A stretch of 64,000 nt of DNA from Sinorhizobium psoraleae (GTDB taxonomy: Bacteria; Pseudomonadota; Alphaproteobacteria; Rhizobiales; Rhizobiaceae). The DNA is taken from contig NZ_JABEKV010000002.1 of NCBI RefSeq assembly GCF_013283645.1, positions 1 through 64,000 of the forward strand, read 5' to 3'. The notes beneath the pieces were generated by a model, which was given only the letters and a program-made list of their open reading frames with translations, had not been told where the DNA came from and ran no database searches. Every line of letters begins with the position of its first letter. The stretch's first letter is position 1. A program made the position numbers and the translations under genes. Shown here piece after piece: positions 16,904 to 40,792 of this stretch.

Positions 16904-18292
16904 TTAGTCGCCATAGTGCTTTGTCGACGCAAGTTGTCCGGCTGTCAAAGGGCGAAGCGGCGGCCGCACGCTTGCAGGTTCAAGGCGGCCGAGTTCGGCA
17001 CCCAGTTGTTCGCTCAAGATTGCGGAGGTTGCCATCGAGCACATCTGGCCCCGGCAGACACCCATACCCGCGCGTGTGTGCGCCTTGAGCCGCCGCATGC
17101 CAGAAGCACCGTTTGCGACCGCGGCTTGGATATCTCGTCCTAGGACTTCCTCGCAGCGGCAGAGTATTACGTCGGCATTCGGTCGCAGGAAACTCGCTGG
17201 TGGCCGATAAGCTATATCCATGAATGCCCTCGCGCGGGCAAGCCGCTCATGCTTCCCTCTGAGATCGCGAGCAATTCTGTCTTTCGTTGCTTCCGGTATC
17301 GCCCCCCGCCGATAGGCGATGTTCAAGACACTCAGCCTGCCGGAGATCCCGGCCGCGTCTGCGCCGAAGATGCCACGTCCGTCGCCGGCCACCATCACGT
17401 TCGGAATCGATGTTTCCTGCCAGACATCGGTCACCGGCTGCCAGCATAGTTGGCGATCGTTCCAAACGTGGTCGGCCCTGACCAATTGTGTGATCTGGGT
17501 ATTGGGGACGACGCCAAAATGCAGGAGGACGACATCGCAATTCAGCGCCGCAGTACGTCCACCGACCGTATATTCGACGCCGGTCACGCTGTCTTTTCCG
17601 AGAATTCTTGCGCCTTGCAAAGAGGCGACACCGTTGATTCCAGTCGTGCGACCGAGGAGCCTCAATCCCTGCAACAGAACCTTCGGTGCCAGAAATGCGC
17701 TCGGAAGATAAGGCGCCGCTCGAAGCAAATCGACGAGGGCCGTCGTCTGGAGCAGCGCGACGACGTCCGCTCCTGCGGCCAGAAGCTGCTTTGCAGCAAG
17801 AAGGAGGAGTGGCCCGCATCCCAATAGCGCGACGCGCCCCTCGGGAATGCGTCCAGACGTCTTCAGCATCAGTTGCGCGGCGCCCGCAGTCATCACTCCA
17901 GGCAGCATCCAACCGGGTATCGGCACGGGTCTTTCGAGGGCGCCGGTTGCAACGACAACGGCTTCAGGCCGGACGGAAAAACTGCTGCCTTGGTGCAGAT
18001 AGCTGACCTCGAGTGGATCCGCTGCCACGTCCCAGACCGATGCTTGCGCCAAATAAGTGACACCACTTTCCCGAAAACGCCTGGCGATCAATGCTCCATG
18101 GGCATCATCTTTATCCAAGACACCGCCGTTTCTCTTTGCTTGTCGCTCCGCCATTTCGATGTCTCGAAACCTCTGGCCACCAGGAGCAGGTTGTTCATCG
18201 AGGACCAGCACGGAAAGCCCGAACTCGGCGGCTTGGATCGCCGCAGTCATGCCAGCAGGACCGGCGCCGATGACGATGACATCCGAACTCAT
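16904..18292 (-). CDS. FAD/NAD(P)-binding subunit of amine or opine oxidase (HcnB/OoxA-like)
   Basis: 462 residues. Rossmann FAD motif VIVIGAGPAGMTAA near the start, EQPAPGGQRF, VVVATGALERPVPIPGW, a second dinucleotide fold (VALLGCGPLLLLAA), then AGDGRGIFGADAA. The C-terminal bfd-like [2Fe-2S] domain has CRCEEV and the pair in MGVCRGQMC. This is the alpha-subunit architecture of octopine/nopaline oxidases, HcnB and related dye-linked amino-acid dehydrogenases. ATG at 18292 overlaps the small ferredoxin-like gene by ATGA. With 18289-18603 and 18587-19732 it would form a membrane-associated three-subunit enzyme that oxidises a C-N bond. The substrate is unknown. Confidence 0.88.
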   Translation of the reverse strand: MSSDVIVIGAGPAGMTAAIQAAEFGLSVLVLDEQPAPGGQRFRDIEMAERQAKRNGGVLDKDDAHGALIARRFRESGVTYLAQASVWDVAADPLEVSYLHQGSSFSVRPEAVVVATGALERPVPIPGWMLPGVMTAGAAQLMLKTSGRIPEGRVALLGCGPLLLLAAKQLLAAGADVVALLQTTALVDLLRAAPYLPSAFLAPKVLLQGLRLLGRTTGINGVASLQGARILGKDSVTGVEYTVGGRTAALNCDVVLLHFGVVPNTQITQLVRADHVWNDRQLCWQPVTDVWQETSIPNVMVAGDGRGIFGADAAGISGRLSVLNIAYRRGAIPEATKDRIARDLRGKHERLARARAFMDIAYRPPASFLRPNADVILCRCEEVLGRDIQAAVANGASGMRRLKAHTRAGMGVCRGQMCSMATSAILSEQLGAELGRLEPASVRPPLRPLTAGQLASTKHYGD

Positions 18293-18603
18293 GTCTCTCG
18301 CCCCTTGAGGTGGAGCGACGGGAGTCGATTTTGCCTGCGAATGGTCATGTTTTTCCGCACCCGCACCATGCACGCCCGTTGATTTGCATGGCCGTTTACT
18401 TCCACGAGACACTCGAAACAGATGCCCGTCAGGCAGTAAGGGCTCCGGCGCCGCCCGCTCACCTGGCTAGTGCCGGTGTAGCCCGCCTTGGCAGCAAGAA
18501 GTGCTGTAGCTACGGTCTCTCCTTCCCGGGCGGCAATGACGCAGCCCTCAAAGTTCAAGCTCATGGACGAGAGCCGATTGGTCGTTTCATGCGGGTTGTT
18601 CAT
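18289..18603 (-). CDS. [2Fe-2S] small subunit (HcnA/OoxX-like)
   Basis: 104 residues. A plant-type ferredoxin fold with the cluster motif SPYCLTGICFECLVEVNG and a final Cys in QRACM, plus GCVIAAREGETVATALLAA near residue 25. Small subunits of this kind pass electrons between the two flavoproteins of HcnABC-type or opine-oxidase complexes. ATG at 18603 overlaps the end of the upstream flavoprotein gene by 17 bases. Confidence 0.88.
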   Translation of the reverse strand: MNNPHETTNRLSSMSLNFEGCVIAAREGETVATALLAAKAGYTGTSQVSGRRRSPYCLTGICFECLVEVNGHANQRACMVRVRKNMTIRRQNRLPSLHLKGRET

Positions 18604-19732
18604 CGCGGAACCTTTCCAGTCCAAACGGCTCAAGTAGGCGATCTCTTGCACCCTCCATGATCCACTGCGGCAGGAGACGCGTATGCAGCGCCGCCAGGGT
18701 GATGCCGCTGTGGCATGAAACGACGAACGCTCCCGGCTGTTCGCTCGATTCCTGATAGATCGGATAACCGTCTTGGGTCCGTGGCCTGAGACAAGCCCAG
18801 CACCGGTTGATTTGCACAGATCGCAGTGATGGCAGTCTTTCGACCGCACTTTTCGCAAGCTCCTTGAGGACTTCAACCGTGGTGCGGTCGTCGCGGCCAG
18901 CATACTCACTCGAGCTACCGATCATCACCGTGCCTTCGACGTTCTGTCGCAGGAAGCCGCTGATCGGGTACTTAAACACCTGGTCGATCCGTTCGGTCAC
19001 GATGATCTGGCCGCGTTCCGGACGCACCTTCAACTGGAGCCCGACCTCTTTGGCGAGGGGCGGAATGCCCAGGCCGGCGGCGATGACGACTCTTGGAGCC
19101 GAGAACTGGCCCGCCGGTGTTCTCACAAAAAAAGCGGTCGTATCTCGAACAATGCGGTCGACGATGTGGCCGAAGAGATAGTGACCACCGCGAGCCTGGT
19201 AGGCGCGAAGGAGGCTGGAATAGAATTTCAGGGGATCGACCGCTCCGTCAAGCGGGCTGAAGGATCCCCCGCTTACAGCCTCTCCCAGACCGACATGGCC
19301 CAACAGCGCGTCAACTTCGTCCCTGTCGAGAATCTCGTTCCGGTACTCTGCCCCCGCGCGCTGCGAGAACTCTTCAATGTGTCTTCTTTGCTCGTCGAGC
19401 TCGCGGTCTCCCACGGACAAATAGACCTTGCCGCGCCCTTGGAAACGCGGATCGATACCGGAACACTCACGAAGCTCCTCCGCAAACAAGGGCCACAGTC
19501 TTCCAGACGTCAGCGAAAGGCGGAAATAGGGGATATTGCTGAACCCCTTGTTGGAGACGGAGATCATTCCGAAATTTCCGCGCGAGGCGCTGAAATCGGC
19601 ATCGTTCCCATCTAGTACTGCGACCCTCAGTTGGCACTTGACGAGGCCATATCCAATGCACAGGCCGACGATACCACCCCCTACGATGACGACATCGAAG
19701 GTCCCGGAGCTTTTCGGTCGGCTCATGTTCAT
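18587..19732 (-). CDS. DadA-type FAD-dependent oxidoreductase (HcnC/OoxB-like subunit)
   Basis: 381 residues. N-terminal FAD motif VVIVGGGIVGLCIGYGL, then GNFGMIS, RVVIAAGLG, RPERGQIIVTER and a C-terminal GxxxCHSGIT-like segment (VVSCHSGITLAALH), all typical of D-amino-acid dehydrogenase/sarcosine-oxidase-type catalytic subunits. It would remove hydride from a secondary or primary amine. First gene of the three-gene unit. Next to it, on the other strand, lies a RidA-family gene, and RidA proteins act on the imines that such oxidases produce. Confidence 0.88.
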   Translation of the reverse strand: MNMSRPKSSGTFDVVIVGGGIVGLCIGYGLVKCQLRVAVLDGNDADFSASRGNFGMISVSNKGFSNIPYFRLSLTSGRLWPLFAEELRECSGIDPRFQGRGKVYLSVGDRELDEQRRHIEEFSQRAGAEYRNEILDRDEVDALLGHVGLGEAVSGGSFSPLDGAVDPLKFYSSLLRAYQARGGHYLFGHIVDRIVRDTTAFFVRTPAGQFSAPRVVIAAGLGIPPLAKEVGLQLKVRPERGQIIVTERIDQVFKYPISGFLRQNVEGTVMIGSSSEYAGRDDRTTVEVLKELAKSAVERLPSLRSVQINRCWACLRPRTQDGYPIYQESSEQPGAFVVSCHSGITLAALHTRLLPQWIMEGARDRLLEPFGLERFRDEQPA

Positions 19733-19840
19733 TTGGCGGCTCCACGGTTGTGGAAGATATTTGCCTCGTCATTGTATGCGTCACGAGAAGTTTTCCGCAG
19801 TCAACCCCGTTAAGTAGGTAGTTGTGTCCAATGTCCTTTC

Positions 19841-19856
19841 TGGCATGGTTCTTGCC
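19841..19856 (+). promoter_or_regulatory. sigma-54-like promoter upstream of ridA-family gene
   Basis: TGGCATGGTTCTTGCC: GG-N10-GC spacing is exact; C of TGGCAC is T. No TGT-N10-ACA site was found in the 110 bases upstream, so NifA control is not supported; another sigma-54 activator or a chance match is possible. Confidence 0.4.
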
Positions 19857-19975
19857 GAAAAGAACGCGCGGTAGAACGGCTTTGAATAGCCACGGACGCT
19901 GGTGTCAGGATGACCAACTGCTGCATTGGTAACAGCGCAGCATCCTTGAGCGGGGAATATCGAGAGGAGCGCAAG

Positions 19976-20344
19976 ATGAACGGGTCATTTCCTGTCATGC
20001 GCGCGCCGGGGGTTGCTCCCGGGCGCAGCTCGGGATCCGCATTCGGCAACCTCGTCTGGGCTGTAGCAACGTCGGATGACAAGACTCTCAGCCTGAAAGG
20101 ACAGATCGAGGCGAGTTTCCGCAAGATCGAGCGTGTTCTCGCGCATTTTGAGACCGACAAGCGCTGCTTGATTTCCGTGAATGTCCTGCTGGCGGATGTC
20201 GAGCAGAAGAAGGAGTTCGACGTCAACTGGAGGGAGTGGGTCGGTGATGACCCGGACCATTGGCCCCAGCGCTGCTGCGTCCAGGCCATCCTTTCGGCCG
20301 GGACCTTGGTTGAGATTTCAGTCGTCGCCGCCCGCCCGTCGTAA
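19976..20344 (+). CDS. RidA (YjgF/UK114) family protein
   Basis: 122 residues. Family features: GNLVWAVATSDD, QIEASFRKIERVL, ISVNVLLADV and the ending LVEISVVAARPS. Classical RidA hydrolyses 2-aminoacrylate and other imines released by PLP enzymes or amine oxidases. The Arg that binds the substrate carboxylate in classical RidA (within VARLP) is not seen; the region reads VQAILSAG, so this is a different Rid subgroup. ATG at 19976 is preceded by GAGGAGCG. It converges with palA and diverges from the oxidase genes. Confidence 0.85.
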   Translation: MNGSFPVMRAPGVAPGRSSGSAFGNLVWAVATSDDKTLSLKGQIEASFRKIERVLAHFETDKRCLISVNVLLADVEQKKEFDVNWREWVGDDPDHWPQRCCVQAILSAGTLVEISVVAARPS

Positions 20345-20348
20345 CCAG

Positions 20349-21221
20349 CTACCTCAGGAAGCGCTTTTCGCTGTCTTTTGCGGCTTCCATGTTCTGAAGG
20401 CGGAAGATCTCCTCCACAGAGACAATGTCCCTGCTTGCGTTCAGGGCGCCACCATCGGCGATGATGCGACGAAATGTGTCCCGCATCGCGGTAACGGCTG
20501 CACGCAGCCCGTGATTGCCGTAGATGACCATGGCAATCGTGTTCAGGGCGCGAACGCGCTTCTCGTTCATTTCCGGGTAGGATGTCGGGACGATCACAAG
20601 CGGCACGGCGCCTTTCCAGGTGCGCGCGAAGCTTTCGATTTCGTCCGGTGTTTTCCGTTTCGAGTGAATGAGGATCATGTCGGCGCCCGCCGCCTCGTAG
20701 GCGGCCGCCCGCGCCAAGGCTTCCTCTTCTCCGAGTCCGGCGATCAAAGCTTCGGTTCGCGCGATGACAAGAAAGTCCGGATCACCCCTAGTCGCGATCG
20801 CCGCTTCGAGCTTGCCTTGGAACTCCTCCGTACGGACCAGTTCCTGCCTGCCTCCGGCAACAAGGCTCGTGACCTTCGGAAAGGTCTTGTCCTCGATGAC
20901 GACGGCGCTTGCACCCGCACGTTCATATTCGCGCACCGCGTGTGTGACGTTCAAGGCATTGCCATACCCGGTATCGATGTCGGCGACGATCGGTATCGAG
21001 ACACGGCCGGCCATGGCCCGCAGCATGTCGAGATGCTGGGACATCGAGACGAAACTCATGTCGGGCAGGCCATGCAGCGCCGAAAGCTCGAAACCGGAAG
21101 CCCAAATTCCGTCGAAACCGGCCTCCTCGACGAGAATGGCGGACAAGGGGCTGTGCGCCGCCATGACGTGAATGAGGCCGCGCTCGGCGATCCGATTTCT
21201 GAGGGTTATGGAAGCGCTCAT
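20349..21221 (-). CDS. palA: Phosphonopyruvate hydrolase
   Basis: 290 residues. Isocitrate-lyase/PEP-mutase superfamily TIM barrel that cleaves 3-phosphonopyruvate to pyruvate and phosphate. Evidence for hydrolase and not mutase: GIWASGFELS near residue 39, DIDTGYGNA (metal loop, residues 81-89) and EDKTFPKVTS (110-119), in which Thr118 replaces the Asn of mutases, followed by GRQELVRTEEFQGK. These match the hydrolase from phosphonoalanine-degrading bacteria as I remember it. The start overlaps the palB stop by one base (TAATG). It gives phosphate and carbon from phosphonoalanine once palB has removed the amino group. Confidence 0.88.
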   Translation of the reverse strand: MSASITLRNRIAERGLIHVMAAHSPLSAILVEEAGFDGIWASGFELSALHGLPDMSFVSMSQHLDMLRAMAGRVSIPIVADIDTGYGNALNVTHAVREYERAGASAVVIEDKTFPKVTSLVAGGRQELVRTEEFQGKLEAAIATRGDPDFLVIARTEALIAGLGEEEALARAAAYEAAGADMILIHSKRKTPDEIESFARTWKGAVPLVIVPTSYPEMNEKRVRALNTIAMVIYGNHGLRAAVTAMRDTFRRIIADGGALNASRDIVSVEEIFRLQNMEAAKDSEKRFLR

Positions 21222-22432
21222 TATTTTCCTTCTTCAGTAAGAGCTGCGCAGGCAGCGATAATCCTGTCGCAAGCACGCTCGAGATCAGCCGGTTCTGCGG
21301 CATATGATATGCGGACGTATGGTGCGGCCATAAAGCCGCTCCCGGGAACGACCGCAACGGCGAATTCGCTCAAAAGATACATGGCAAAGTCGGTATCGGT
21401 TTTGATCAGCCGGCCAGCCGGTGTCCGCTTTCCGATCGTCCCCGCGCAATTGGCAAAAGCATAAAATGCTCCCTCTGGCAGCCGGCAGCTTAAGCCCTCT
21501 GCTTGGTTGAGTTTTTCCACCACGAGATCACGACGCGCCCGAAACGCTTCGACGAAACCGGCGACGTACGCCTGCCCGCCGGCGATGGCTTCGATAGCCG
21601 CATATTGCGATATCGAACTTGTGTGGGACGAAGTTTGCCCCTGAATGACATTCATGGCCTTGATCAGCGGCTGGGGTCCCGCGCCGTAGCCGACGCGCCA
21701 ACCGGTCATCGCATTGGCTTTCGAAACGCCGTTGACCACAAGCGTCCGCTCGAACAAATCGGGCGCGACCGAGGCGATGGCCGCGAACGAGGCGTCGTAG
21801 ACGAGCTTTTCATAAATGTCGTCGGACAGCACGAACACCTGCGGATGACGACGCAGCACTTCCGCAAGCTCGGCTAGATCGCCGGCAGAGTAGACAGCTC
21901 CAGTCGGATTGTTGGGAGAATTGAGCATCAACCACTTCGTCTGCAGTGTGATGCACGCCTCAAGCGCATCTGCGCGTAACTTGAAACCGTGGAACTCGGT
22001 GCATGGCACCAGAACGGGCACCCCGTCGGCGAGAGTGACCATATCCGGATACGAGACCCAACATGGCGTCGGAATGATAACCTCATCGCCGGGATCCAGG
22101 CTGGCAAAGAGCGCATTGAAAACAACCTGCTTGGCGCCGCAACCGACGGTGATCTGATCCGTCGCATAATCGAGGCCATGATCGCGCATCAGCTTTTCCT
22201 GGATCGCCTCACGAAGAGGTCCAACGCCGGCAACAGGCGTGTATCGCGTCTTGCCGGCGCGAATGGCGGCGATGCCCGCGTCCTGGATAGACATGGGGGT
22301 GTCGAAGGCGGGTTCGCCCTGGCTGAGCGCGATGACGTCGGCTCCTGCTGCCTTGAGCTCAGCAGCTCGAGCGGTCATTGCCTTCGTTTCGGATGGGCGA
22401 ACAATTTCAAGGCGACGTGCAACAAGGGCCAA
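21221..22432 (-). CDS. palB: Aspartate-aminotransferase-type transaminase, likely phosphonoalanine:pyruvate
   Basis: 403 residues, fold-type I class I aminotransferase. Features: GEPAFDTP, RYTPVAGVGPLREA, GCGAKQVVFNA, NSPNNPTGAVY, the PLP Lys in NGVSKANAMTGWRVGY near residue 240, and the C-terminal Arg in APYVRISYA that binds the substrate carboxylate. TTG at 22432 is the likely start, with GGGAG nine bases upstream. Gene pairing with palA is the known arrangement for phosphonoalanine use, where the transaminase yields phosphonopyruvate. The substrate assignment rests on this pairing. Confidence 0.8.
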   Translation of the reverse strand: MALVARRLEIVRPSETKAMTARAAELKAAGADVIALSQGEPAFDTPMSIQDAGIAAIRAGKTRYTPVAGVGPLREAIQEKLMRDHGLDYATDQITVGCGAKQVVFNALFASLDPGDEVIIPTPCWVSYPDMVTLADGVPVLVPCTEFHGFKLRADALEACITLQTKWLMLNSPNNPTGAVYSAGDLAELAEVLRRHPQVFVLSDDIYEKLVYDASFAAIASVAPDLFERTLVVNGVSKANAMTGWRVGYGAGPQPLIKAMNVIQGQTSSHTSSISQYAAIEAIAGGQAYVAGFVEAFRARRDLVVEKLNQAEGLSCRLPEGAFYAFANCAGTIGKRTPAGRLIKTDTDFAMYLLSEFAVAVVPGSGFMAAPYVRISYAAEPADLERACDRIIAACAALTEEGK

Positions 22433-22617
22433 CGGTTTGCTCCCGGAAACGGCGATCGGCCGTCTGCCCTCGCAGCACTTCCGCCAGAAAACGGAGAGAG
22501 ACTTACCGGCGACGGTGCGGAACGATCAAAACAACTGCCATTCCTATACGTGCCCTGCGTGTGGATCCGCAAACAAGGTTATCGAATTCATCAACAAGAG
22601 TATCGCATTATTCGATA

Positions 22618-23589
22618 TTACCTCGTCTCGACACCATGTTTGCGGAACAGGCGGACGAGCCAACGACAGAACATCCGTGCGAGTTCCGGATTGTTGCCGC
22701 GGTCGACTGCATAGGCACGATAGAGCATTCCACTTGCAACCCGTGTGCCCGGGACCACCTTCAAAAGACCGTCCTGGATGAGGTCGCTAACGATGATTTC
22801 CGGCGCGACCAGAAGGCAATTCCCCTTCGTAATCGCAGGCAGTGCGAGGTAGTGATGATCGTAGCGGGCGCCGGAGTTGATATCACCCGGCGTTAGGTTC
22901 ATCGCCCTGAGCCACGTAGGCAATATGTCCGGACGAGACGTGATGGTGAGGAGCGGCATGGTGCGGACCACTGTTTGACCCTTGCCCGAAATATGGGTGG
23001 ATGATCCGACGCAGACGATGTGTTCGGAGTGGAGCTCCCACTGATCTGCCGGCTCTACGATCGAAAGATCACGTGTGATTAAAACATCGAAACCATCGTC
23101 TGAAGTGGGCGGTGCAAGCGAATTGACGATATCGACGACGGCGCCACCACACTCCTGGGAAAATGCTTGAATATTTGGAACGAGCAAGGTGTAGGCGAGG
23201 GTAGTCAATGAAGTGCGCACTACAATCCGGTTGATGTCCCCTTTTAGCTTGCGCCGCATTCTCTGCGCGGTAAAGCAGATCGTATCTAACGGTTCGGTCA
23301 CCGTGTTGGCAAACAGCCTGCCGAACTCCGTCAGTTCGGTGTTGCGCCCGCGGCGCTCGATGAGCTGAGCCCCGAGGTACTCTTCTAGAACTGCGAGGTA
23401 TCGACTGGCCGAACTCTGGGTCATCCCCAGAGCCTTGGCCGCTCGAGTGACATTTCGCTCCCTCGCTATACTGACGAAGGCGCGGATCGCATTGAGGGGA
23501 ACGTCCTGGTTTTCGCCAGCCAAGGTCGGCTCCTTTGGTATCTTGGATATTTTCGCACTCATAATCGACATACTCGTCCTTGCAATCAC
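22618..23589 (-). CDS. LysR-family regulator of the phosphonate genes
   Basis: 323 residues, slightly longer at the N-terminus than usual. Winged helix at about residues 30-90: LNAIRAFVSIARERNVTRAA, then MTQSSASRYLAVLEEYLGAQLIERR. The LysR substrate domain follows (VVDIVNSL, GFDVLITRD, HYLALPAITKGN). The start could also be the later Met at 23571 or 23562. It sits upstream of palB on the same strand and diverges from the phosphodiesterase-ABC operon, so it is placed to read both. LysR genes accompany palAB in phosphonoalanine users. Confidence 0.88.
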   Translation of the reverse strand: MIARTSMSIMSAKISKIPKEPTLAGENQDVPLNAIRAFVSIARERNVTRAAKALGMTQSSASRYLAVLEEYLGAQLIERRGRNTELTEFGRLFANTVTEPLDTICFTAQRMRRKLKGDINRIVVRTSLTTLAYTLLVPNIQAFSQECGGAVVDIVNSLAPPTSDDGFDVLITRDLSIVEPADQWELHSEHIVCVGSSTHISGKGQTVVRTMPLLTITSRPDILPTWLRAMNLTPGDINSGARYDHHYLALPAITKGNCLLVAPEIIVSDLIQDGLLKVVPGTRVASGMLYRAYAVDRGNNPELARMFCRWLVRLFRKHGVETR

Positions 23590-23672
23590 ATTTCTTGATA
23601 GTTGTCACTTAGCTGTCGCTCTGCGCCGATAGTTGGCCCCCGAAGTCAACTGCAAAAAAATGGTGCGGCCTC

Positions 23673-25190
23673 ATGAAATTTCTGGTTGTCAGCTTCGACG
23701 GTCTACGTCCGGATCTAGTCTCCGCAAGCCTCACACCTAATATTTGCCGCCTTCAATCGCTTGGCATTACATTGTCCCGCCACCGGACGGTCTATCCGAG
23801 CGAGACTCGGGTGGCCTTTCCCAGCCTTGTGACGGGAACGACCTCAAGCGGGCACGGCATGGTCGGCAACAAGTTTGTCGACCGGTCCGTCGTCCCGAAC
23901 CGATATATCGATACTGCCGACGCCGTCCTGCTCGACCGGTTGAACCGGGAAAGCAATGGCAATCTGATGACGGCACCAACGCTCGGAGAATTACTGGCGG
24001 GTTCCTCGAAAACCATGGCGGTTCTTGCGACCAACACGCCAGGAACGACTCGGCTTTTTCATCACAAGGCTGAGGATTTCGGTCACGTCCGGTTCTCCGG
24101 CCACTTCCGCGAGGCGTGCACGCCAACGGCTGTGCTCGCGGAGCTTGAAGCGGGACTCGGTGCGCTTCCCCCTGCGCCCGAAAAGGGCGAACCCGACACA
24201 TCTGGACAGGTGTGGATCACCTCCGCCTTCTTGGATTACGTCTGGCCCAAGCTCAAGCCCGATGTGACGATCCTTTCGTACGGTGAACCGGATACAACGT
24301 CGCATTTTCACGGGACGGCTTCCGCTGTTACGCGCTCCATCACCGAATTTTGCGATGCTCAGTTCGGGCGTGTTCTCGATTGGTGGGAGGCGGAAGGACG
24401 CGATGCGGGCGTGCAGATCGTCATCCTTTCCGATCACGGTCACGTCACCGCACACACACGTGTCTCCGTCACCTATGAACTCAGATCTGCCGGCTACTCC
24501 CCCGGTGCGGCCCCGGAATCAGGCGTCGACGTGGTTGTCGTGCCCGGTCAGGTCGGTGCGCTCTATCTTGCCGATCGATCCCAGGCGAACCTCGCCCGCC
24601 TAGTCGAGACTCTCATGAACCGCCCCTGGTGCGGGCCGATCTTCACCGCACCAAAAAACTCGGTGGAAGGGCTGGCGCCCGGCAGTTTCGCAAGCACGCT
24701 GGTGTTCGCTGACCATCATCGCGCCCCGGATGTCTATTTTTCCTTCAAGACGGACGACAGCATCGACGCCTTTGGAATGCGGGGTGGGACCTTCTACGAC
24801 AACGACCGTGTTCCTGGCCTCGGCGTCCACGGCGGTCTGCATCCGAAGGAGCTTGCCGCCGTTGGATTAATGGCTGGATCGGCTTTCCGGGGCCGAGGGC
24901 TGATCTCGGAGGTTCCCTCCGGCATTTGCGATATCGCGCCGACTATTCTCCATCTCCTCGGTTTGCCCGTTCCAGCCCCGATGACGGGGCGCGTCCTGCG
25001 CGAGGCCTTGTCGGAGGCCGGTCCCGCCACGCCGGAGCTGCGCATCGAATGCGAGACGTTACAGACAGGTTTGAACGCCTACCGACAGGAACTCCACCGC
25101 GTCCGCGTCGACGGCACGACGTATATCGATGGCGCGACCGTGGCCAGCACCAGCTCCACCCACAGGAAAGAATTTGAGGCCGCCGAATGA
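23673..25190 (+). CDS. Alkaline-phosphatase-superfamily phosphodiesterase/phosphonate hydrolase
   Basis: 505 residues, type I phosphodiesterase/nucleotide pyrophosphatase domain. Metal ligands and nucleophile in family order: Asp in SFDGLRPD near residue 9, Thr in YPSETRVAFPS near 44, Asp and His in GEPDTTSHFHG near 207, Asp-His in SDHGH near 255 and His in VHGGLHP near 388. Relatives hydrolyse nucleotide and lipid phosphodiesters; phosphonoacetate hydrolase belongs to the same group. No signal peptide, so it is cytoplasmic. First gene of an operon whose next gene overlaps it by four bases. It may free a phosphonate from an ester after import. The exact substrate is unknown. Confidence 0.82.
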   Translation: MKFLVVSFDGLRPDLVSASLTPNICRLQSLGITLSRHRTVYPSETRVAFPSLVTGTTSSGHGMVGNKFVDRSVVPNRYIDTADAVLLDRLNRESNGNLMTAPTLGELLAGSSKTMAVLATNTPGTTRLFHHKAEDFGHVRFSGHFREACTPTAVLAELEAGLGALPPAPEKGEPDTSGQVWITSAFLDYVWPKLKPDVTILSYGEPDTTSHFHGTASAVTRSITEFCDAQFGRVLDWWEAEGRDAGVQIVILSDHGHVTAHTRVSVTYELRSAGYSPGAAPESGVDVVVVPGQVGALYLADRSQANLARLVETLMNRPWCGPIFTAPKNSVEGLAPGSFASTLVFADHHRAPDVYFSFKTDDSIDAFGMRGGTFYDNDRVPGLGVHGGLHPKELAAVGLMAGSAFRGRGLISEVPSGICDIAPTILHLLGLPVPAPMTGRVLREALSEAGPATPELRIECETLQTGLNAYRQELHRVRVDGTTYIDGATVASTSSTHRKEFEAAE

Positions 25191-32521: not shown

Positions 32522-32586
32522 CTTTTCTCTCCTTGTGCAGGTTGATCGCAGCGCGAAGGCCAGGCCGTAAGTTGTCTGAACAACGG

Positions 32587-33720: not shown

Positions 33721-34658
33721 TTCAAATCTCCCCTCTCGCGCGAAAGAAATGAGTAGGGTTCGACATTGAATCGCGGCACGCGAACGGCGGGCGCGAAGCC
33801 TGAACGTCTGGTGCAAATTGCCACTGATAAGACAATTACAGCCGCGCTTATGAGCGTTTGCGCGGAAAGGCGTTCGGAAAAAAAGAATACACCGACAGCA
33901 GCAGCACAAACCACGCGCAGGTACTCCAACGCTGACGCCTGGCTGAGCGGCAGATACCCATAGCCTCGTGCTAAAGCGACCTGACTCGCCACGAACAACA
34001 ACGAAATCGCTGTTACTATGGCTAAAGCCTGAGTTGTTGGCGGCGTCCATGCAAAACACGCTGACAAGCCCGCGAGAGGGACGATTAGCGTGGTCCTTAG
34101 CCAGGAGGAGAGTATTGCCGGATCCCTCGATCCGAGAAGCTTGAGCAACAGAATTGCGATCGCAGAAAGCAGAGCAGACGCCAACCCTATAAGCAGCCCA
34201 GGAAGTGATAGCCCCTCTTCTCCCGGGCTGAGTAGAACTACTACTCCAATCATCCCGAACATATACCCAGCCCACTGGTGCCAGCTGATTTCCTCGCGGA
34301 GAAAAAATGTTGCCGCAAAAGCTAGGAATAACGACTTGGTGAAAAATACTGTAGTTGCCGTCGCGACAGGTAGCAACGTTATGCTATATATCCATAGAAG
34401 CGATGACATGAACCCGCACACGCCGCAGAGAAGGTAGACATAAAGCCGATTTCTATTGGATGAGATGAAGCAACACCCAATTGGCCCCACCCGGTTTGAT
34501 GCCATAATCAACGATGTTATTTGTGCGGATATTAGAAGCCTTAGGAATAACATCGTTTCGGCCGAGAGGTCGACGCTGGCAAAACGAATTAGGACATTGG
34601 ACACGGTAAAAGTCGCAACCTCAAGCAGCAGCCATGCCAATGCTCGTGATCGTGACAT
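33717..34658 (-). CDS. EamA/DMT-family membrane transporter
   Basis: 313 residues with about ten membrane helices in two EamA repeats (VATFTVSNVLIRFASVDLS in the first, LLIGLASALLSAIAILLLKLL opening the second). ATG at 34658 has GGAGGGG just upstream; a GTG at 34670 would lie on that site. Relatives export amino acids and other small metabolites across the inner membrane. In this cluster it is the natural candidate exporter of the phosphonate product. Confidence 0.88.
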   Translation of the reverse strand: MSRSRALAWLLLEVATFTVSNVLIRFASVDLSAETMLFLRLLISAQITSLIMASNRVGPIGCCFISSNRNRLYVYLLCGVCGFMSSLLWIYSITLLPVATATTVFFTKSLFLAFAATFFLREEISWHQWAGYMFGMIGVVVLLSPGEEGLSLPGLLIGLASALLSAIAILLLKLLGSRDPAILSSWLRTTLIVPLAGLSACFAWTPPTTQALAIVTAISLLFVASQVALARGYGYLPLSQASALEYLRVVCAAAVGVFFFSERLSAQTLISAAVIVLSVAICTRRSGFAPAVRVPRFNVEPYSFLSRERGDLK

Positions 34659-34755
34659 CGCCCCCTCCACTACTCATAACCTATTCGCGACAACCGGCTG
34701 CTAGACCGCATCATGACGTTTAGTAATCCGGCCTTATCGATCCCTCTTCCTCTGA

Positions 34756-35553
34756 TTAGCTGCTGGCCACGAGTCCGCCGTCCACATACAGGACTTGCCC
34801 GGTCACAAACCCTGAAAGCGGTGATACGAAAAACAGCACGGCACCAGCGACATCAGCCGGTGTCGCGAGCCGGCCAAAAGGAATATTGGCGATAGCATTT
34901 TGAATAGCTGACGGATCTTGAAGCGCTTCGTCGTTCTTTCGTGTCCGCACGGCACCGGGAGCAACACCGTTCACTGTGATGCCATATGGGGCGAGCTCAG
35001 TGGCCTGCTGTTTCATTAGAATAGCCAGGCCGCCCTTTGCGGCGCACATTGCGCTGTAGCCCCGGCCGCGGAAGCCGAGGGAGGACCGGACCGAAAGGAG
35101 ATGCACCTGGCTGCCTCCTTTAGCGACGGAGACCTGGTGCTTTGCAATGGCTTGGGAGAGAAACATTCCGACTCTCAAGGTCTTCGCATAGACCTCGTCA
35201 AACGCCTCTTCGGTCACGTCGAGTAGCTTCTGTTCCTTGTGAAACCCGACACAGTTAACGAGAATGTCAATCGATCCGTGCCGTCCTACCAAGTCGCCAG
35301 CGATGTCACGGACTGCCTGAACATCGCAGGCATCGAGCTCGATGCCTTCGGCATCATGGTGCTTCGAGCTCAACGCGTCGGCGAGCCTTCGGGCGAGATC
35401 TCCGTTCCGTCCGGCGATAAAGCATTTCGCACCGGCCGAAGCCAACATCTCAGAAATGGTCGATCCGATCGCTCCATAGCCGCCGACAACAAGTGCGACC
35501 TTGCCGGTGAGATCGAGCAGCGGCAACCGGGAGGTCCGGGCAATGCTAGTCAT
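34756..35553 (-). CDS. SDR-family oxidoreductase with a Met at the usual catalytic Tyr
   Basis: 265 residues. NAD(P) motif VGGYGAIGSTIS near residue 28, NCVG, PYGITVNGVAPGAVRT and VTGQVLYVDGG are standard for the short-chain family. The active-site helix reads GYSAMCAAKGG; four residues before the Lys, where Tyr is expected, there is Met, and a Tyr sits three residues earlier. Activity may be altered, or the Tyr may serve from a shifted position. ATG at 35553 overlaps the end of the SelA-like gene by eight bases. Could reduce or oxidise an intermediate of the phosphonate pathway. Confidence 0.87.
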   Translation of the reverse strand: MTSIARTSRLPLLDLTGKVALVVGGYGAIGSTISEMLASAGAKCFIAGRNGDLARRLADALSSKHHDAEGIELDACDVQAVRDIAGDLVGRHGSIDILVNCVGFHKEQKLLDVTEEAFDEVYAKTLRVGMFLSQAIAKHQVSVAKGGSQVHLLSVRSSLGFRGRGYSAMCAAKGGLAILMKQQATELAPYGITVNGVAPGAVRTRKNDEALQDPSAIQNAIANIPFGRLATPADVAGAVLFFVSPLSGFVTGQVLYVDGGLVASS

Positions 35554-37174
35554 CGAATTGCACCCCGACTGTCGAAGTACCGTCCGCGACCATGGCTTCC
35601 CTGATTTTCGATTGCTCGAGTTCGCCCTCTTTAGTCGTTTCGACTCGACGCGCGCTCCAAGTGGCGGTCCCGAATTGTTGCCGAAAGACAGGGCCGTCGT
35701 TCTCGTTGCTTGCCGCGCCGAGGCGCACGATACCCTCACCGTCCCTGGAAAGAAGGTTGCCCTCGAACGTATAGTAGATCGCCATGGGACTGGCCTCGTG
35801 ACGCGCCTGAAGTGTTAGGGAGTCGCCAATCATCTGCCCGCTGGCATGCCCGACGGATAGCATGGTGCGATGGGTCGCCTGGACAGCGTGCCCATGCTGC
35901 ACGAGCTCCAGTGATTGTTCCGAGAAGTATCGGGGATACTTGATCTTCAAGAGCCAAGATCCCGTTCGCTCGTAGAGGGTCCGCGCTTGGGGCGGGTTTG
36001 GAGCTGAACGGGGAGAAAGTAGTTCGCTCCGAATGGCCTTTCCGACAATAACGGCCTCCTCCTCTGTGAGGTTGAACGGATCAACGACGATCGAGTTGTT
36101 CGTCGCCCAAAAATCATGAATGAGTATTCGCGGACTGCGCGACAGCAGCGCCTCGATCAGCGTCTGCGCATTGACTCCAAGTCTGTTCGCGTCCCAGGAC
36201 AATCGGACCCTGAGGGCCGTGACAGAGTCGGATGGAAGCAGGAACGTCGCGCTGAGGAATGGGATGCTCCCAATGCTGTCCAGCATAAGGTCCAAGCGGT
36301 GACGCCACGCCTTACCCTCGCGCTCTTCAAATCCGTCCGCAAGCCAACGTTCAAGAGCGGCGACCGCGCCGACGATCTCCTCTTTCCCGACCTTGAGCGG
36401 GCGGCATGCGCCCTGATGCGGCGGGCCATTAAACCAAGCCGCTGAGCAAAGTGCTTTACTACCCAGTAGCAGCCCTGTTGATTGCGGCCCACGGAGATAT
36501 TTTCCAGCGGAGTACGCGACCAGATCGGCACCGTTCGACAACCATGGATCAGGATTGCCGGGGCGTAGTCCGGCGGCATCGACCAGAATCGGAACTTGCG
36601 CTTGCCGGGCCAGCGGGACGAGGGACCGCAGGGAGATCGCGCTACCGCCGCGCGCCTTGCGACCAAGGAGAACGATCAGTGCCACTTCACCGCTCTCGAT
36701 CGCCCGTGCCGCTTCACCGACGGTGCTGACGATTAATGGTTTTCCGCCGGCGAGGCGAACGGCTTGGTCGTAGGGAATTCGTTGATCCGAGATCAGAAGC
36801 ACTCTGTTCGGAACGCCGTCCGCGTCCGGCAGCCGTAACATTCGCTCGGGGTCATTACCGGCGAGGCAGGCAGCGGTTGCAAGCGCCAGGCCGCCAGCGG
36901 TTCCAGACGTGACAATCCCCCACTCAGCCCCGGTCAAAGACGCTAGCCGTGAACCGACCGCCTCCGCCAGCTCGTCGAGATCCACGAAGGCCTCCGCGGC
37001 GGCATTCATCGCATTGATGACGTCGTCGGCCGGGTTGCTCGCGCCGTAGTTGGTGCGCACGCCAGCGCAATTGATCAGCGGTGAGACGCTAAGTGAACGG
37101 TAGATCCACCCGGGCGACTTGAGCTCGGGTGGATTCAGAATTGAAGTGCCTGAGGGGAAGGGCAAAACGCGCAT
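35546..37174 (-). CDS. SelA-like PLP enzyme with extra C-terminal domain
   Basis: 542 residues. Residues 25-390 form a fold-type I PLP domain like selenocysteine synthase-like proteins and glucosaminate ammonia-lyases: INCAGVRTNYGAS, VTSGTAGGLALATAACLAG, ILVDAAG and the Lys225 motif AYSAGKYLRGPQSTGLLLG. Residues 410-542 make a second, beta-rich domain (SWLLKIKYPRYFS, MAIYYTFEGNLL) that I do not recognise. ATG at 37174 shares a base with the CDP-alcohol transferase stop (TGATG). Homologues act on beta-hydroxy or phosphorylated amino acids, so an elimination or addition reaction on a phosphono-amino acid is possible. Confidence 0.8.
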   Translation of the reverse strand: MRVLPFPSGTSILNPPELKSPGWIYRSLSVSPLINCAGVRTNYGASNPADDVINAMNAAAEAFVDLDELAEAVGSRLASLTGAEWGIVTSGTAGGLALATAACLAGNDPERMLRLPDADGVPNRVLLISDQRIPYDQAVRLAGGKPLIVSTVGEAARAIESGEVALIVLLGRKARGGSAISLRSLVPLARQAQVPILVDAAGLRPGNPDPWLSNGADLVAYSAGKYLRGPQSTGLLLGSKALCSAAWFNGPPHQGACRPLKVGKEEIVGAVAALERWLADGFEEREGKAWRHRLDLMLDSIGSIPFLSATFLLPSDSVTALRVRLSWDANRLGVNAQTLIEALLSRSPRILIHDFWATNNSIVVDPFNLTEEEAVIVGKAIRSELLSPRSAPNPPQARTLYERTGSWLLKIKYPRYFSEQSLELVQHGHAVQATHRTMLSVGHASGQMIGDSLTLQARHEASPMAIYYTFEGNLLSRDGEGIVRLGAASNENDGPVFRQQFGTATWSARRVETTKEGELEQSKIREAMVADGTSTVGVQFDD

Positions 37175-37782
37175 CAAACCGTTCCCCGTTGAACGAGGAT
37201 CATCGAGGCGGCGACGGCGAAGAGCGTGATCGCCAGGTACATGGCCCGGTTCGGCGATGGTACGCGAACCGATGCGACATGGGCCGCGCTCAAAACAACG
37301 AAGACGACGTTTACGGCCGGCAGGAAAGTTGTCGCGGGCATAATGGGCTGGACGAGAAACAGGGCGGCAATCAGGGGAATGTCGTAGGACAACGGCACAC
37401 CGAAGAACCGGCCGTCATCTGACTTTCCGAAGCTCGCGAAATAGCTCAGGCGAATGGCACCGGCGAGTAGCAACGCCGTGGCGACGAAGAAGGAGACGAC
37501 CGACGCGCCATTCAGCTGAACGAGAACAATCGCCGGGAGGATTGCGCCATAAATGATATCGCCGAACCCGTCGAGGTTCTTGCCCATCTTTGCCATGTCG
37601 GGCGACCGGTTTCGGGTTCTCCTCGCGACCACGCCATCCAGGTGGTCCGCGAGAACGGCCCATAGGGCAGCGCCGACCGCCAGCTCAATGTGCCCCGCGA
37701 CCGCGAAATAGAGAGCAATCGAGGAGCACAGCAGCCCGGCCGTGGAGATGGCGTTGGCGGGGTCAACGAGGTAGCGAAGCAT
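37174..37782 (-). CDS. CDP-alcohol phosphatidyltransferase-family membrane enzyme
   Basis: 202 residues, five or six membrane helices. The family motif is present: Asp49-Gly50, Ala53-Arg54, Gly67, Asp71, Asp75 (DG-x2-AR then GKNLDGFGD), with 12 residues between Arg and Gly instead of the usual 8, a small oddity. Such enzymes move a phospho- or phosphono-alcohol from a CMP-activated donor to an acceptor, often a lipid. Next to the nucleotidyltransferase it suggests CMP-phosphonate to lipid or polyol transfer. Confidence 0.88.
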   Translation of the reverse strand: MLRYLVDPANAISTAGLLCSSIALYFAVAGHIELAVGAALWAVLADHLDGVVARRTRNRSPDMAKMGKNLDGFGDIIYGAILPAIVLVQLNGASVVSFFVATALLLAGAIRLSYFASFGKSDDGRFFGVPLSYDIPLIAALFLVQPIMPATTFLPAVNVVFVVLSAAHVASVRVPSPNRAMYLAITLFAVAASMILVQRGTV

Positions 37783-37806
37783 CTTCTACTCTCCCAAGAT
37801 TGGTCG

Positions 37807-38589
37807 TCAGCAGACGATTTCCCGTGCGGTTAAGAACATGGCCTCGGCGAAACGGAGGTCGGCCTCGTTGTCAATCTCGTACCATTTGAGGCCGTCGCAC
37901 CTGGCGGCCGCGATCTGCAGCCCTCTCCGCCGCACGAGCTTCGACAGAAGCTCTTCAGTGTAGGATTTGACGGCGCCCGCGCTGATGATGATCTCATTGA
38001 GATGCGGAACGATCGTCCGGCGCAGATCCTCCCCGGAAAAGCGGATCAGGTTCATCGTTTTGAAAAGTGGTGGCGAGCCGTCGTTGAGGTTCGCTGCCGT
38101 CTGTTTCATCCGCACTTCGGCGATATATCCGTTGTTCGTCAAGACGACGGCAGAGCCTTCCATCGTCGGGCTGAACGGAGCGACCGCCGCGACATTGTCC
38201 GCATCACCAAGTGTCAGATAGCGAAGCGCGTCGGTTTCGAAAAAGACGTCGCCCTCGAGCAGATAGACGTCGCCGGCCAAAAGTGCGTCGCGCGCCAGCC
38301 ACAGCGAATAGGCGCTTCCTGTCCGGTCGAAGACATCAGATACGACATAGTCGATGTCGAGATTGCCGAAGCGGCGGCCGCAGGAATACTCGATCGCGTC
38401 CTTGCAGTAGCCGACGACGATCGTCACCTCCCGCACGCCGACGGCCTCAAGGTTTCGCAAAGCGTTGTGCAGGATCGGCGTGCCATTGACCTCGACGAGC
38501 GGCTTCGGCCGAAAATCGGTATGCGGGCGCAGGCGCGAGCCAGATCCAGCGGCAAGAATGATCGCCTTTCTCGGAGGAATTGCGTGCAT
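37807..38589 (-). CDS. Sugar-phosphate/phosphonate-type nucleotidyltransferase (PntC-like)
   Basis: 260 residues. NTP-transferase fold: IILAAGSGSRLRPHT near residue 10, RPKPLVEVNGTPIL with the substrate Lys, VVGYCKDAIE, and the metal Asp in YLLEGDVFF; near the C-terminus WYEIDNEADLRFAE supplies the second metal Asp. This pattern fits LicC and PntC, the cytidylyltransferases for phosphocholine and aminoethylphosphonate. In a PEP-mutase cluster the likely role is CTP-dependent activation of the phosphonate. No PLP domain is fused to it, unlike some PntC proteins. Confidence 0.85.
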   Translation of the reverse strand: MHAIPPRKAIILAAGSGSRLRPHTDFRPKPLVEVNGTPILHNALRNLEAVGVREVTIVVGYCKDAIEYSCGRRFGNLDIDYVVSDVFDRTGSAYSLWLARDALLAGDVYLLEGDVFFETDALRYLTLGDADNVAAVAPFSPTMEGSAVVLTNNGYIAEVRMKQTAANLNDGSPPLFKTMNLIRFSGEDLRRTIVPHLNEIIISAGAVKSYTEELLSKLVRRRGLQIAAARCDGLKWYEIDNEADLRFAEAMFLTAREIVC

Positions 38590-38628
38590 GGGTCAAAACC
38601 CCTCTATATGGTTGCGGCGACGAATCCT

Positions 38629-39819
38629 TCAGTTCCAGGTGTTAAGGACACGGACCACCCGTTCGAGGCCCGCCTCGAGTTGTTCTGGCGGAATCCCATA
38701 GGAGAGCCTAATCCCCATGGGATCGCCGAAGGCGGTGCCCGACACGCCGGCGACTCCGGCCTGCGCGAGAAGCGCGGCCACGACGTCATCAGCCGTCTTA
38801 GCGCGACCATTTCCGAGCGTCGGCTGCAAAATGCCCGACAGATCGAGGTAAAAATATAACCCGCCTTGTGCTCCCGGCATCGGTACCCGCTGCAGTTCGG
38901 AGAGGACGGAGAGCCCGGTCTGCCGCGCCGCCGCCAATCGGTCCTTGAGCCGGGTCTCAAAGGCGCCGTCGCCTTCACGGAGGTGGTGAAGCACGGCGTG
39001 CTGGGCGATGACATTCGGGTTCGACGTTGTGTGCGACTGCAGTGCTTTGACTGCCGAGATCAGCTCCTTCGGTGCAGCGAGATACCCGATACGCCAGCCC
39101 GTCAGGGCCAGGCTCTTGGAAAAGGAATTGACGATCACGGTCCGGCCCCGAACATCGGGGCTCAGCGACACGATCTGATGGTGCCGATGACCATCATGGG
39201 TAAACGGACCGTAGCACTCATCGAAAATGATCCAGAGATCCCGCTCCATCGACAGCCTGGCGATGCCGGCGAGGGTTTCTGCGTTATAGACTGCGCCACT
39301 GGGGTTCCCAGGCGTGTTGATGACGATTGCCCGGGTCAGCGGCGTGATGACGCGCTCGATATCTTCGACCCGCGGAACGTAACCATTTGGTCGCGTGTCA
39401 AAATGGACCGGCATACCGCCGGCGATCCGAACCTGCGCCGGGAATGTTGTCCAGTAGGGTGCGGGGACGATGACCTGGTCACCGGGATTGATCAGCGTCA
39501 TCGCCACGTTGAAGAGACCCTGCTTGGCGCCACTCGTCACAGCGATCTCGTCCGCTCGCCAGAGTTGCCCGGTCTCGACCGACACCTTCCGCGCCAGCGC
39601 GTCGCGCAGTTCCATCGAACCAACCGTGTCGGTGTAGCGGTTCAGGCCTCGTCGTATAGCCTCGATCGCTCCATTCCGGATCGTCGGCGCCAGATCGCTC
39701 CAGATCTCGCCAACCGTGAGATCGACAGTGTCCGTGCCGGCATCCGCGGCGGCTTTCGCCGCTTCGCGGGCGGCCGCAGTCCCCGACGATTTGAACAAGT
39801 TTGTCCGTTGCGCCAGCAT
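38629..39819 (-). CDS. Class I aminotransferase, predicted phosphonopyruvate transaminase
   Basis: 396 residues. LTVGEIWSDLAP, NRYTDTVGSMELRDAL, VTSGAKQGLFNVA, NTPGNPSGAVYN, the PLP Lys in VNSFSKSLALTGWRIGYL near residue 236, and MGIRLSYGIP with the C-terminal Arg. It is a homologue of the palB protein at 21221-22432. ATG at 39819 has AAGGGA upstream; the longer frame runs into the intergenic region. It follows the PEP mutase directly, with no decarboxylase between, so transamination of phosphonopyruvate to phosphonoalanine is the simplest role. Confidence 0.84.
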   Translation of the reverse strand: MLAQRTNLFKSSGTAAAREAAKAAADAGTDTVDLTVGEIWSDLAPTIRNGAIEAIRRGLNRYTDTVGSMELRDALARKVSVETGQLWRADEIAVTSGAKQGLFNVAMTLINPGDQVIVPAPYWTTFPAQVRIAGGMPVHFDTRPNGYVPRVEDIERVITPLTRAIVINTPGNPSGAVYNAETLAGIARLSMERDLWIIFDECYGPFTHDGHRHHQIVSLSPDVRGRTVIVNSFSKSLALTGWRIGYLAAPKELISAVKALQSHTTSNPNVIAQHAVLHHLREGDGAFETRLKDRLAAARQTGLSVLSELQRVPMPGAQGGLYFYLDLSGILQPTLGNGRAKTADDVVAALLAQAGVAGVSGTAFGDPMGIRLSYGIPPEQLEAGLERVVRVLNTWN

Positions 39820-39859
39820 GCGCGTCCCTTCTCTTTTTTGCGGACCGCCTGAAGCGGCT

Positions 39860-40792
39860 CTACTCGTGGCCGTGCGCCGCCTGCGGCAGGTATTTGTCCT
39901 CTGCAACTGCGAGCTCGCCGTAGTTCATCAAATCGAACAGCTCATCGAGCGTCGCGACCTCGCCTTCGATACCGGCGATGCTTTCTTCCTGGATGATGCG
40001 GTCGCAGACCTGGCGCATCGCCGAGATCGCGGCGCGCATGTTGTGGTTGGCCCAAATGACCGTCGAAATGGCTGCTGCCCGGTACTCGGCGACGGGCGTG
40101 CGGTAATATTTCGTAGGTACGATCATGACCGGCAGTTTGTTGTTCCATTCTTTTGAGAAAGCGAGGATTTCGTCCGGAACGCTTTTGCGGGAATGGATGA
40201 GGATCGCGTCGGCGCCGGCTTTCGCGTATGCGTGCGCCCGCACCAGCGCCTCATCGAGACTGTGGTCGGCGATCAAGGCTTCGGTGCGGGCGACCAGGAC
40301 GAAGTCGGGTCCAGTGGTGTCCCTCACGGCACTCAGGCGACCGGAGAATTCGTCGATGTCAGCCAGCGGTTGCCTATCGCCGACGAAGGAGTTCATTTTC
40401 GGGAAACCCTTGTCCTCAAGGCAGATGCCGGAGGCTCCACGTTGCTTGAGCTTCCTCGCGACGATTCGGGCATTGTTGAAATTGCCGAACCCGGTATCGC
40501 CGTCGACCAGGATCGGTAGTCCGCTTGCATCGGCCATCCGCTCCACGACGCCCACCACGTCGGTCCAGCTCGCCTCGTTCGCATCGCGATAACCGATCGC
40601 CGACGAGATCGAAAGGCCAGAAGCCCAAAGGCCCTTGAAGCCCGCTTGTGCGGCGATCGCCGACGAAATTCCGTCATGCGCCTCCATGAGAAACGTCAGG
40701 TCACTCGACAGCATCAAATCGCGGAGCGTTGTCGTCGGATCTTCGAGGGTGCCCACCGGTTTGGGCATGTAAACTGTCCGATCCACTGCCAT
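39860..40792 (-). CDS. pepM: Phosphoenolpyruvate phosphomutase
   Basis: 310 residues. Converts PEP to phosphonopyruvate, the committed step to C-P compounds. The mutase signature EDKGFPKMNS is intact, with the diagnostic Asn at about residue 134, and the metal loop reads VDGDTGFGNFNNAR. The C-terminal part includes ARTEALIADHSLDEAL and WANHNMRAA. Start choice: ATG 40792 is only one base after GGAGG, while the GTG two codons later (40786) has ideal seven-base spacing; either gives the same core. The longer frame to 40891 has no ribosome site. First gene of the cluster. Confidence 0.93.
   Translation of the reverse strand: MAVDRTVYMPKPVGTLEDPTTTLRDLMLSSDLTFLMEAHDGISSAIAAQAGFKGLWASGLSISSAIGYRDANEASWTDVVGVVERMADASGLPILVDGDTGFGNFNNARIVARKLKQRGASGICLEDKGFPKMNSFVGDRQPLADIDEFSGRLSAVRDTTGPDFVLVARTEALIADHSLDEALVRAHAYAKAGADAILIHSRKSVPDEILAFSKEWNNKLPVMIVPTKYYRTPVAEYRAAAISTVIWANHNMRAAISAMRQVCDRIIQEESIAGIEGEVATLDELFDLMNYGELAVAEDKYLPQAAHGHE

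Follow-up and report, generated by a model that had tools for sequence, protein, structure and literature searches.

Convergent gene sets predicted to make and recover a phosphonate in Sinorhizobium psoraleae and other rhizobia suggest a rhizopine-like nutrient

Introduction

Why should a bacterium keep genes for building a carbon-phosphorus (C-P) compound right next to genes for breaking one down? The question arises from a 64,000-nucleotide stretch of the Sinorhizobium psoraleae genome (NZ_JABEKV010000002.1, positions 1 to 64,000; hereafter the window), which forms the first 64 kb of the 1.5 Mb contig C12 in a draft genome of 7.4 Mb. A gene set predicted to recover a phosphonate (16904-30756) and one predicted to make a phosphonate (30823-40792) meet there tail to tail at 30.8 kb. 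This convergence had been noticed in a preliminary description made from the sequence alone, and it is confirmed: the named genes are all present at full length. The accompanying interpretation, in which the two sets act like a rhizopine locus, is partly supported. The explanation that we favour, with modest confidence, is that the two sets serve a single phosphonate ester, which one would build and send out and the other would take back up and digest; it would be a rhizopine-like private nutrient, nodule-made where its synthesis is controlled by NifA.

Gene content of the two sets

In the recovery set the genes for a LysR-type regulator, PalB and PalA lie on one strand, and a phosphodiesterase gene together with an importer operon diverges from these. 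Beyond PalA lie the three genes of an oxidase and one for RidA.

16904..18292, minus strand: alpha subunit of an oxidase dependent on flavin adenine dinucleotide (FAD), accessory recovery gene (Pyr_redox_2, Fer2_BFD and sarcosine-oxidase A3)
18289..18603, minus strand: small subunit of this oxidase, with a 2Fe-2S (Fer2_4) domain and a predicted start
18587..19732, minus strand: DAO-family FAD oxidase, beta subunit
19976..20344, plus strand: RidA-like protein (PF01042), predicted imine/enamine deaminase
20349..21221, minus strand: palA, predicted phosphonopyruvate hydrolase, marker EDKTFPKVTS
21221..22432, minus strand: palB, predicted phosphonoalanine aminotransferase
22618..23589, minus strand: LysR-type regulator in the PalR position
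23673..25190, plus strand: type I phosphodiesterase of the NPP/PhnA superfamily
25187..26362, plus strand: importer ATPase, UgpC/MalK-like
26359..27336, plus strand: importer permease 1
27333..28169, plus strand: importer permease 2
28195..29448, plus strand: periplasmic binding protein, nearest solved structures UgpB (6r1b, 4aq4), UspB (4mfi) and sugar-binding proteins
29584..30756, plus strand: recovery-side aminotransferase-fold protein, similar to the C-terminal domain of MocR and lacking a helix-turn-helix

The making set runs towards it from pepM, from which a regulator gene diverges.

30823..31698, minus strand: protein of the EEP family (Exo_endo_phos), with which the set ends
31706..32521, minus strand: S-adenosylmethionine (SAM) methyltransferase, predicted tailoring enzyme
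32587..33684, minus strand: aminotransferase-fold protein of the making side
33717..34670, minus strand: EamA transporter, predicted exporter
34756..35553, minus strand: short-chain dehydrogenase/reductase (SDR) family oxidoreductase
35546..37177, minus strand: SelA/DgaE-like pyridoxal phosphate (PLP) protein with an extra C-terminal part
37174..37782, minus strand: cytidine diphosphate (CDP)-alcohol phosphotransferase
37807..38589, minus strand: PntC/LicC-like cytidylyltransferase
38629..39819, minus strand: predicted aminotransferase from phosphonopyruvate to phosphonoalanine
39860..40792, minus strand: pepM, predicted phosphoenolpyruvate (PEP) mutase, marker EDKGFPKMNS
41640..42380, plus strand: GntR regulator, divergent from pepM

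The preliminary gene list holds for the members that it names, except that its single amine oxidase is a three-part enzyme (16904-18292, 18289-18603 and 18587-19732) and that its RidA gene, present at 19976-20344, lies on the strand opposite to the oxidase and PalA. It omitted the SelA/DgaE-like protein, the SDR, the methyltransferase, the EEP-family protein and the two aminotransferase-fold proteins.

The CDP-alcohol transferase is nearest to phosphatidylserine synthase (7pow, 7b1k), and its motif aspartates are intact and invariant across 14 aligned sequences. The cytidylyltransferase near pepM carries GXGSRX8PK, the cytidylyl activation motif expected of PntC, which fits the LicC-like pattern GXG(T/S)RX4-8PK; its substrate would be phosphonoalanine. 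PalB and the making-side aminotransferase share 33% identity, and the two aminotransferase-fold proteins, one per set (29584-30756 and 32587-33684), share 35%. A full MocR-type regulator with about 31% identity to both of the latter is encoded at 45614-47041. In E. aridi as in S. kostiense, pepM has an 87% identical copy of the GntR regulator beside it. Relatives of the phosphodiesterase at E<=1e-60 were found on 26 plasmid records, 25 of which also carry PalA, far away on at least two of them. Elsewhere in the genome (G000:C9:27893-28600; L029, L071) there is an additional, shortened PepM-like frame of 268 aa with 75% identity to the window's PepM across 241 residues.

An opine-type oxidase acting on an N-conjugated phosphonoalanine had also been suggested. 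Nothing specific speaks for it. The profile matches of the oxidase are just broad ones (soxA/ThiO/DAO), all under their cut-offs. A homologue of the alpha subunit adjoins PalA in Phyllobacterium phragmitis, the one other locus among the 23 paired loci compared below in which the two large subunits recur. Another recovery-side protein (L008, 24054-25397; 447 aa) has no Pfam match; its relatives in G012 and G442 are conserved at 64-66%.

Distinguishing the mutase from the hydrolase

Since PepM and PalA share 40% identity, the split between mutase and hydrolase matters. Marker residues separate the two enzymes, EDK-NS in the mutase and EDK-TS in the hydrolase. The window's PepM has the PEP mutase signature EDKXXXXXNS, scores 341.9 against TIGR02320 (cut-off 319.55) and finds its best solved relative in PEP mutase 1m1b. 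PalA scores 374 against the phosphonopyruvate hydrolase model TIGR02321, just below the cut-off of 374.4, and among solved structures it comes closest to phosphonopyruvate hydrolase 2dua, which we take to be the enzyme of Variovorax sp. Pal2. A PalA of predicted hydrolase type with PalB and a LysR regulator adjacent makes a putative PalAB unit, and the families assigned earlier to palA and palB are borne out.

The markers are largely kept among relatives. PalA relatives have TS in 21 of 22 cases and SS in one. EDK with NS is found in 61 of 76 PepM relatives; the other 15 do not match EDK-NS, and of the nine inspected eight have EDT or EDS with NS kept, while L028 is without the motif.

Co-occurrence and architecture of the paired loci

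The earlier proposal had made its case depend on the two sets occurring together in related strains, and they recur together in many rhizobia as well as in a small number of related bacteria. In a family-level sample of 394 genomes, in which PepM was counted over its cut-off and PalA after a residue check, PepM is present in 12, PalA in 13 and both in six (P=2.9e-7). Four of the six have the two within 25 kb of each other on a single contig; in G041 recovery genes adjoin the making set and PalA is near the end of another contig, and in G177 PalA is on a separate contig from PepM. Co-occurrence thus exceeds chance at the family level, but not within the genus alone (PepM 12, PalA 5, both 3 of 33 genomes; P=0.24), where all three pairs lie within 25 kb. 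Left out of these counts are G415 and G086, with 30-35% identity to either enzyme, and the PepM-like second copies of G023 and G177. Before the residue and identity checks the family had 15 PalA genomes (P=8e-7) and the genus four overlaps (P=0.11).

Plasmids and further genomes give a similar picture. PepM lies within 34 kb on at least 14 (two apparent duplicates included) of 36 plasmid records with PalA (E<=1e-60), and in 10 of 30 genomes chosen for PepM the contig that bears it also has PalA, at most 26 kb away; AR07 is counted among both the 10 and the 14. A pair suggested by coordinates in A. vitis CG78 (G438) was dropped, as neither PalA nor an importer was seen. Each set also occurs alone, and both are patchy and mobile.

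A panel of 23 paired loci from seven genera, selected for carrying both sets, was compared; the AR07 locus (L091) repeats that of M. huakuii 583, and the two enter both the panel and the 76 pepM upstreams discussed below as one. In all 23 loci genes predicted to make and to use the compound are linked in one strain, as in a rhizopine locus, and 21 of them have the importer and pepM operons running towards each other. R. indigoferae and S. meliloti M162 differ, with PalA facing the making set instead. Between the sets lie genes for a Na/Pi symporter and a PhoU-domain protein (24638-26031 in L007, 24.2-25.9 kb in L084), as if they handled released phosphate.

The type of importer goes with the type of making set. 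Dipeptide (Dpp)-type importers are found in all eight loci with AsnB (four) or HisC-like (four) genes, and CUT1 importers (sugar/glycerophosphodiester-type) in all 14 remaining loci; P. phragmitis, which has both types, was set aside. The match has P=3e-6, or 0.008 after collapse to 10 types of our own grouping, a grouping that was made after inspection and without tree correction. M. loti UFLA 01-765 has two pairs, one of each type, and in E. aridi the AsnB gene is on the importer strand.

That both sets may share a replicon with symbiosis genes was borne out by plasmids which carry the two sets and nifH: those of AR10, M. huakuii 583 and R. indigoferae among the matches listed, and that of AR07. 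In M. amorphae nifH is 36 kb off, and a nifH fragment is 28 kb off in M. kowhaii. In eight genus-mates of the window's strain a single contig carries both pepM and nifH, which in five of them lie within 45 kb of each other.

NifA-type sites and expression in nodules

Upstream regions were scanned for a NifA upstream activating sequence (UAS; TGT-N10-ACA) followed 50-180 bases on by a sigma54 site. A sigma54 scan by itself was uninformative and the joint rule alone discriminated; it recovers the nifH promoter of G023. Such a pair stands ahead of 11 of 76 distinct pepM upstreams as compared to 4 of 1764 background pieces (P=3e-13) and to none of 81 recovery-gene upstreams (P=2e-4). A dirtier background that includes nif-region DNA has 23 pairs in 2304 pieces, seven of these being pepM upstreams, and P is 1.5e-10 after their removal. 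About four site families account for the 11 pairs (six are nearly alike, all from Mesorhizobium, and eight of the 11 are in named Mesorhizobium); the pairs are therefore far from independent, and the P values overstate. The pepM of M. tianshanense, scanned separately, also has a pair, which brings the total to 12 of 77. Site pair and linked recovery set occur together in AR10, M. huakuii 583, M. amorphae, M. kowhaii and M. tianshanense. The sites of AR10 and G177 have an A at -12 (TTGA), as is usual at nifH in M. loti and R. etli (PMC3538637).

Expression data exist for one cluster that is probably orthologous, judged by gene order, namely msi323-msi327 (asnB, aatA, pepM) of M. loti R7A, whose own sequence is outside our comparison. 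Fusions of pepM, aatA and asnB to lacZ reached 827, 2456 and 862 Miller units in bacteroids and 7.7, 16 and 22 where nifA2 was mutated, and stayed below 20 in broth (Sullivan et al. 2013, PMC3538637). The gene order fits that of Mesorhizobium 131-3-5 (L078), save one extra gene between, and the 131-3-5 pepM is preceded on a nifH plasmid by a UAS and a CGGCACG-N4-TTGCT site. This pair suggests that direct NifA control may have been overlooked in R7A. The available text of two bacteroid transcriptome papers (PMC3973600, PMC6421345) has nothing on pepM or palA, and a text match in a nodule proteome (PMC11511026) was to 'PepMap' and was discarded as pepM evidence.

Two NifA-type site pairs occur elsewhere on the plus strand of the window. 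One (3344-3446) is upstream of an S9 peptidase gene (3551). The other (8505-8580) is upstream of a radical-SAM gene (8943), the first in a QueC/GTP-cyclohydrolase run; radical SAM, QueC-like, GTP cyclohydrolase I and dCTP-deaminase-like genes cluster at 8943-13749, a possible 7-deazapurine pathway behind a NifA-type pair.

Predicted pathway and the compound that travels

The gene families suggest the following route. PepM, assigned by family and marker, would convert PEP to phosphonopyruvate, the making-side aminotransferase would yield phosphonoalanine, and the PntC-like protein would activate this to CMP-phosphonoalanine. The CDP-alcohol transferase may then move phosphonoalanine onto a small alcohol, perhaps serine, because it is nearest to phosphatidylserine synthase. 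Locus-specific tailoring would follow ester formation, and EamA or major facilitator superfamily (MFS) proteins would export the product. After re-import by the UgpB-like system the phosphodiesterase would cleave the ester, and PalB and PalA would release pyruvate, amino nitrogen and phosphate. Since in several Mesorhizobium only the making set stands behind a NifA-sigma54 pair, the product would there be synthesised within nodules, and free-living relatives equipped with the recovery set would consume it.

A phosphonate had been proposed as the mediator, and a rhizopine-like reading stands; the travelling compound is, however, probably a phosphonate ester (or amide) more so than free phosphonoalanine. 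Cytidylyl activation, the CDP-alcohol transferase, the phosphodiesterase that accompanies PalA and the UgpB-like binding protein all point this way: the transferase would form an ester which the phosphodiesterase would open.

Comparison with known systems

The mos and moc genes of rhizopine loci are closely linked. The rhizopine 3-O-methyl-scyllo-inosamine of S. meliloti L5-30 is made in nodules under NifA and serves as a carbon and nitrogen source (PMC6668481). Whereas mos and moc stand for inositol chemistry, the present locus stands for C-P chemistry with cytidylyl activation. There is no inositol enzyme among the family matches in 16904-40891, a range in which no name-based search for mos and moc was made, and the two aminotransferase-fold proteins score 62.7 and 56.1 against the rhizopine MocR model, far under its cut-off of 650. 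The system would thus work like a rhizopine without being one by chemistry.

The pal operon of Variovorax sp. Pal2 (palA, palB, palCDE, palR) likewise has a LysR regulator, PalB, PalA and transporter genes (PMC10574752). It is described there for degradation only, while the present locus adds a phosphodiesterase, a UgpB-like importer and the neighbouring making set. Clusters of the PntC/LicC type share pepM near a LicC-like cytidylyltransferase, yet those studied lead to 2-aminoethylphosphonate (AEP) via a decarboxylase and an AEP transaminase, presumably for cell surfaces (PMC6697681); the window has a phosphonoalanine-type aminotransferase, a PssA-like transferase and an importer instead. 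The phosphonoalamides of Streptomyces (pnaABCD) share PepM and the aminotransferase to phosphonoalanine but use peptide ligases (PMC11867202), in contrast to the cytidylyl activation and recovery set seen here. The nodule-expressed, nifA2-dependent R7A cluster is not interpreted as phosphonate or nutrient genes in its authors' accessible text (PMC3538637). No phosphonate rhizopine proposal is among the listed matches in the open-licence PubMed Central (PMC) literature on phosphonates with rhizopines, opines or nodules, or on phosphonoalanine.

A Ti plasmid, pTi_CFBP1905, carries a pepM-PntC-CDP-alcohol transferase cluster (L009, 15743-31999) with ornithine cyclodeaminase, alanine racemase and cysteine synthase-like genes, adjoining an ATP-binding cassette (ABC) importer. 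This cluster possibly makes another phosphonate product.

Weighing the explanations

A number of observations weigh against a nodule-made phosphonate nutrient. The idea of nodule making finds support in the 12 of 77 site pairs and in the R7A fusions, but not at the window itself: NifA control of its own pepM was sought, and neither a NifA UAS nor a good sigma54 site was found upstream. Nor was a pair found in the eight Sinorhizobium pepM upstreams on nifH contigs, and those eight genus-mates gave no PalA match. The window's strain carries nifH (contig C4) and nodA (contig C27), with repC matches on further contigs; contig C12 has no nifH, nodA or repC match, and a symbiotic replicon is therefore not established for this strain. 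One of the 11 pairs precedes the PepM-like gene without motif (L028), and PepM of the R7A-type Mesorhizobium (L078) reads EDT instead of EDK, a caveat on its use. The 131-3-5 plasmid has no PalA record in the PalA plasmid search. In R7A the pepM, aatA and asnB mutants are fully effective, and the authors hold direct NifA activation to be highly unlikely (PMC3538637). Neither a C-P compound nor an enzyme activity is documented for these loci in the accessible published text. The non-significant genus count, the few site families and the grouping made after inspection have to be added here, as has the finding that an exporter is recognised by EamA or MFS probes in just 7 of the 23 loci.

Those seven exporters would also fit an antibiotic or signal, with PalAB protecting the producer or recycling the product. 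Known phosphonoalanine products are antimicrobial tripeptides (PMC11867202), and AsnB-type enzymes could form amides. Resistance requires no dedicated importer, however, yet the importer type matches the making set, and many plasmids have the recovery set with no PepM among the matches listed; we consider this explanation unlikely. The scarcity of recognised exporters would suit a cell-surface or lipid head group, a phosphonolipid or glycan for whose turnover the recovery set would serve. The transferase belongs to a membrane family, activation with a cytidylyl group has been proposed as the logic behind surface phosphonates (PMC6697681), and phosphonoalanine is a phosphonolipid component (PMC10574752). 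Such a role is nevertheless decidedly unlikely, given that no glycosyltransferase is among the family matches of the window's set, that the transferase resembles phosphatidylserine synthases, which use small acceptors, and that the importers include periplasmic binding proteins.

The nodule is not the whole story, because nifH was not found in 5 of 17 paired-locus genomes, namely Chelatococcus asaccharovorans, Phyllobacterium phragmitis, Xaviernesmea oryzae and two Mesorhizobium, which also counts against the nodule reading. A plasmid-borne phosphorus and nitrogen carrier private to kin, in soil or on plants and without any tie to nodules, would account for these genomes and for the NifA pair not found in the window, the eight near-nif Sinorhizobium sets or most loci. 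Against it stand the pairs in five recovery-linked loci and on the nifH plasmid of 131-3-5 as well as the nodule-specific expression in R7A (PMC3538637), which make it quite unlikely. That unrelated scavenging and biosynthesis islands became neighbours on accessory DNA by chance is conceivable for sets that are mobile, patchy and each found alone; recurrent convergence with matched module types in 23 loci of seven genera and the family-level co-occurrence already disfavour this, and we regard it as very improbable. For the symbiotic members the rhizopine idea is the best reading.

Implications

The paired loci may belong to a wider class of phosphonate rhizopines, a view which we put forward tentatively. 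Swappable tailoring cassettes would sit on a core of PepM, aminotransferase, PntC and transferase, driven by NifA in nodules, with a matching importer and hydrolase for each locus; the products would be differing phosphonate esters or amides from which free-living kin would regain carbon, nitrogen and phosphorus.

If the rhizopine-like reading is true, phosphorus would join the currencies that nodule symbionts send to their relatives in the soil, and both the pepM clusters on symbiosis plasmids and the silence of the R7A genes in broth would be accounted for. Matched pairs of makers and importers might then be used for orthogonal plant-microbe signalling, and the old question of who benefits from terminal bacteroids would become testable by 31P nuclear magnetic resonance (NMR).

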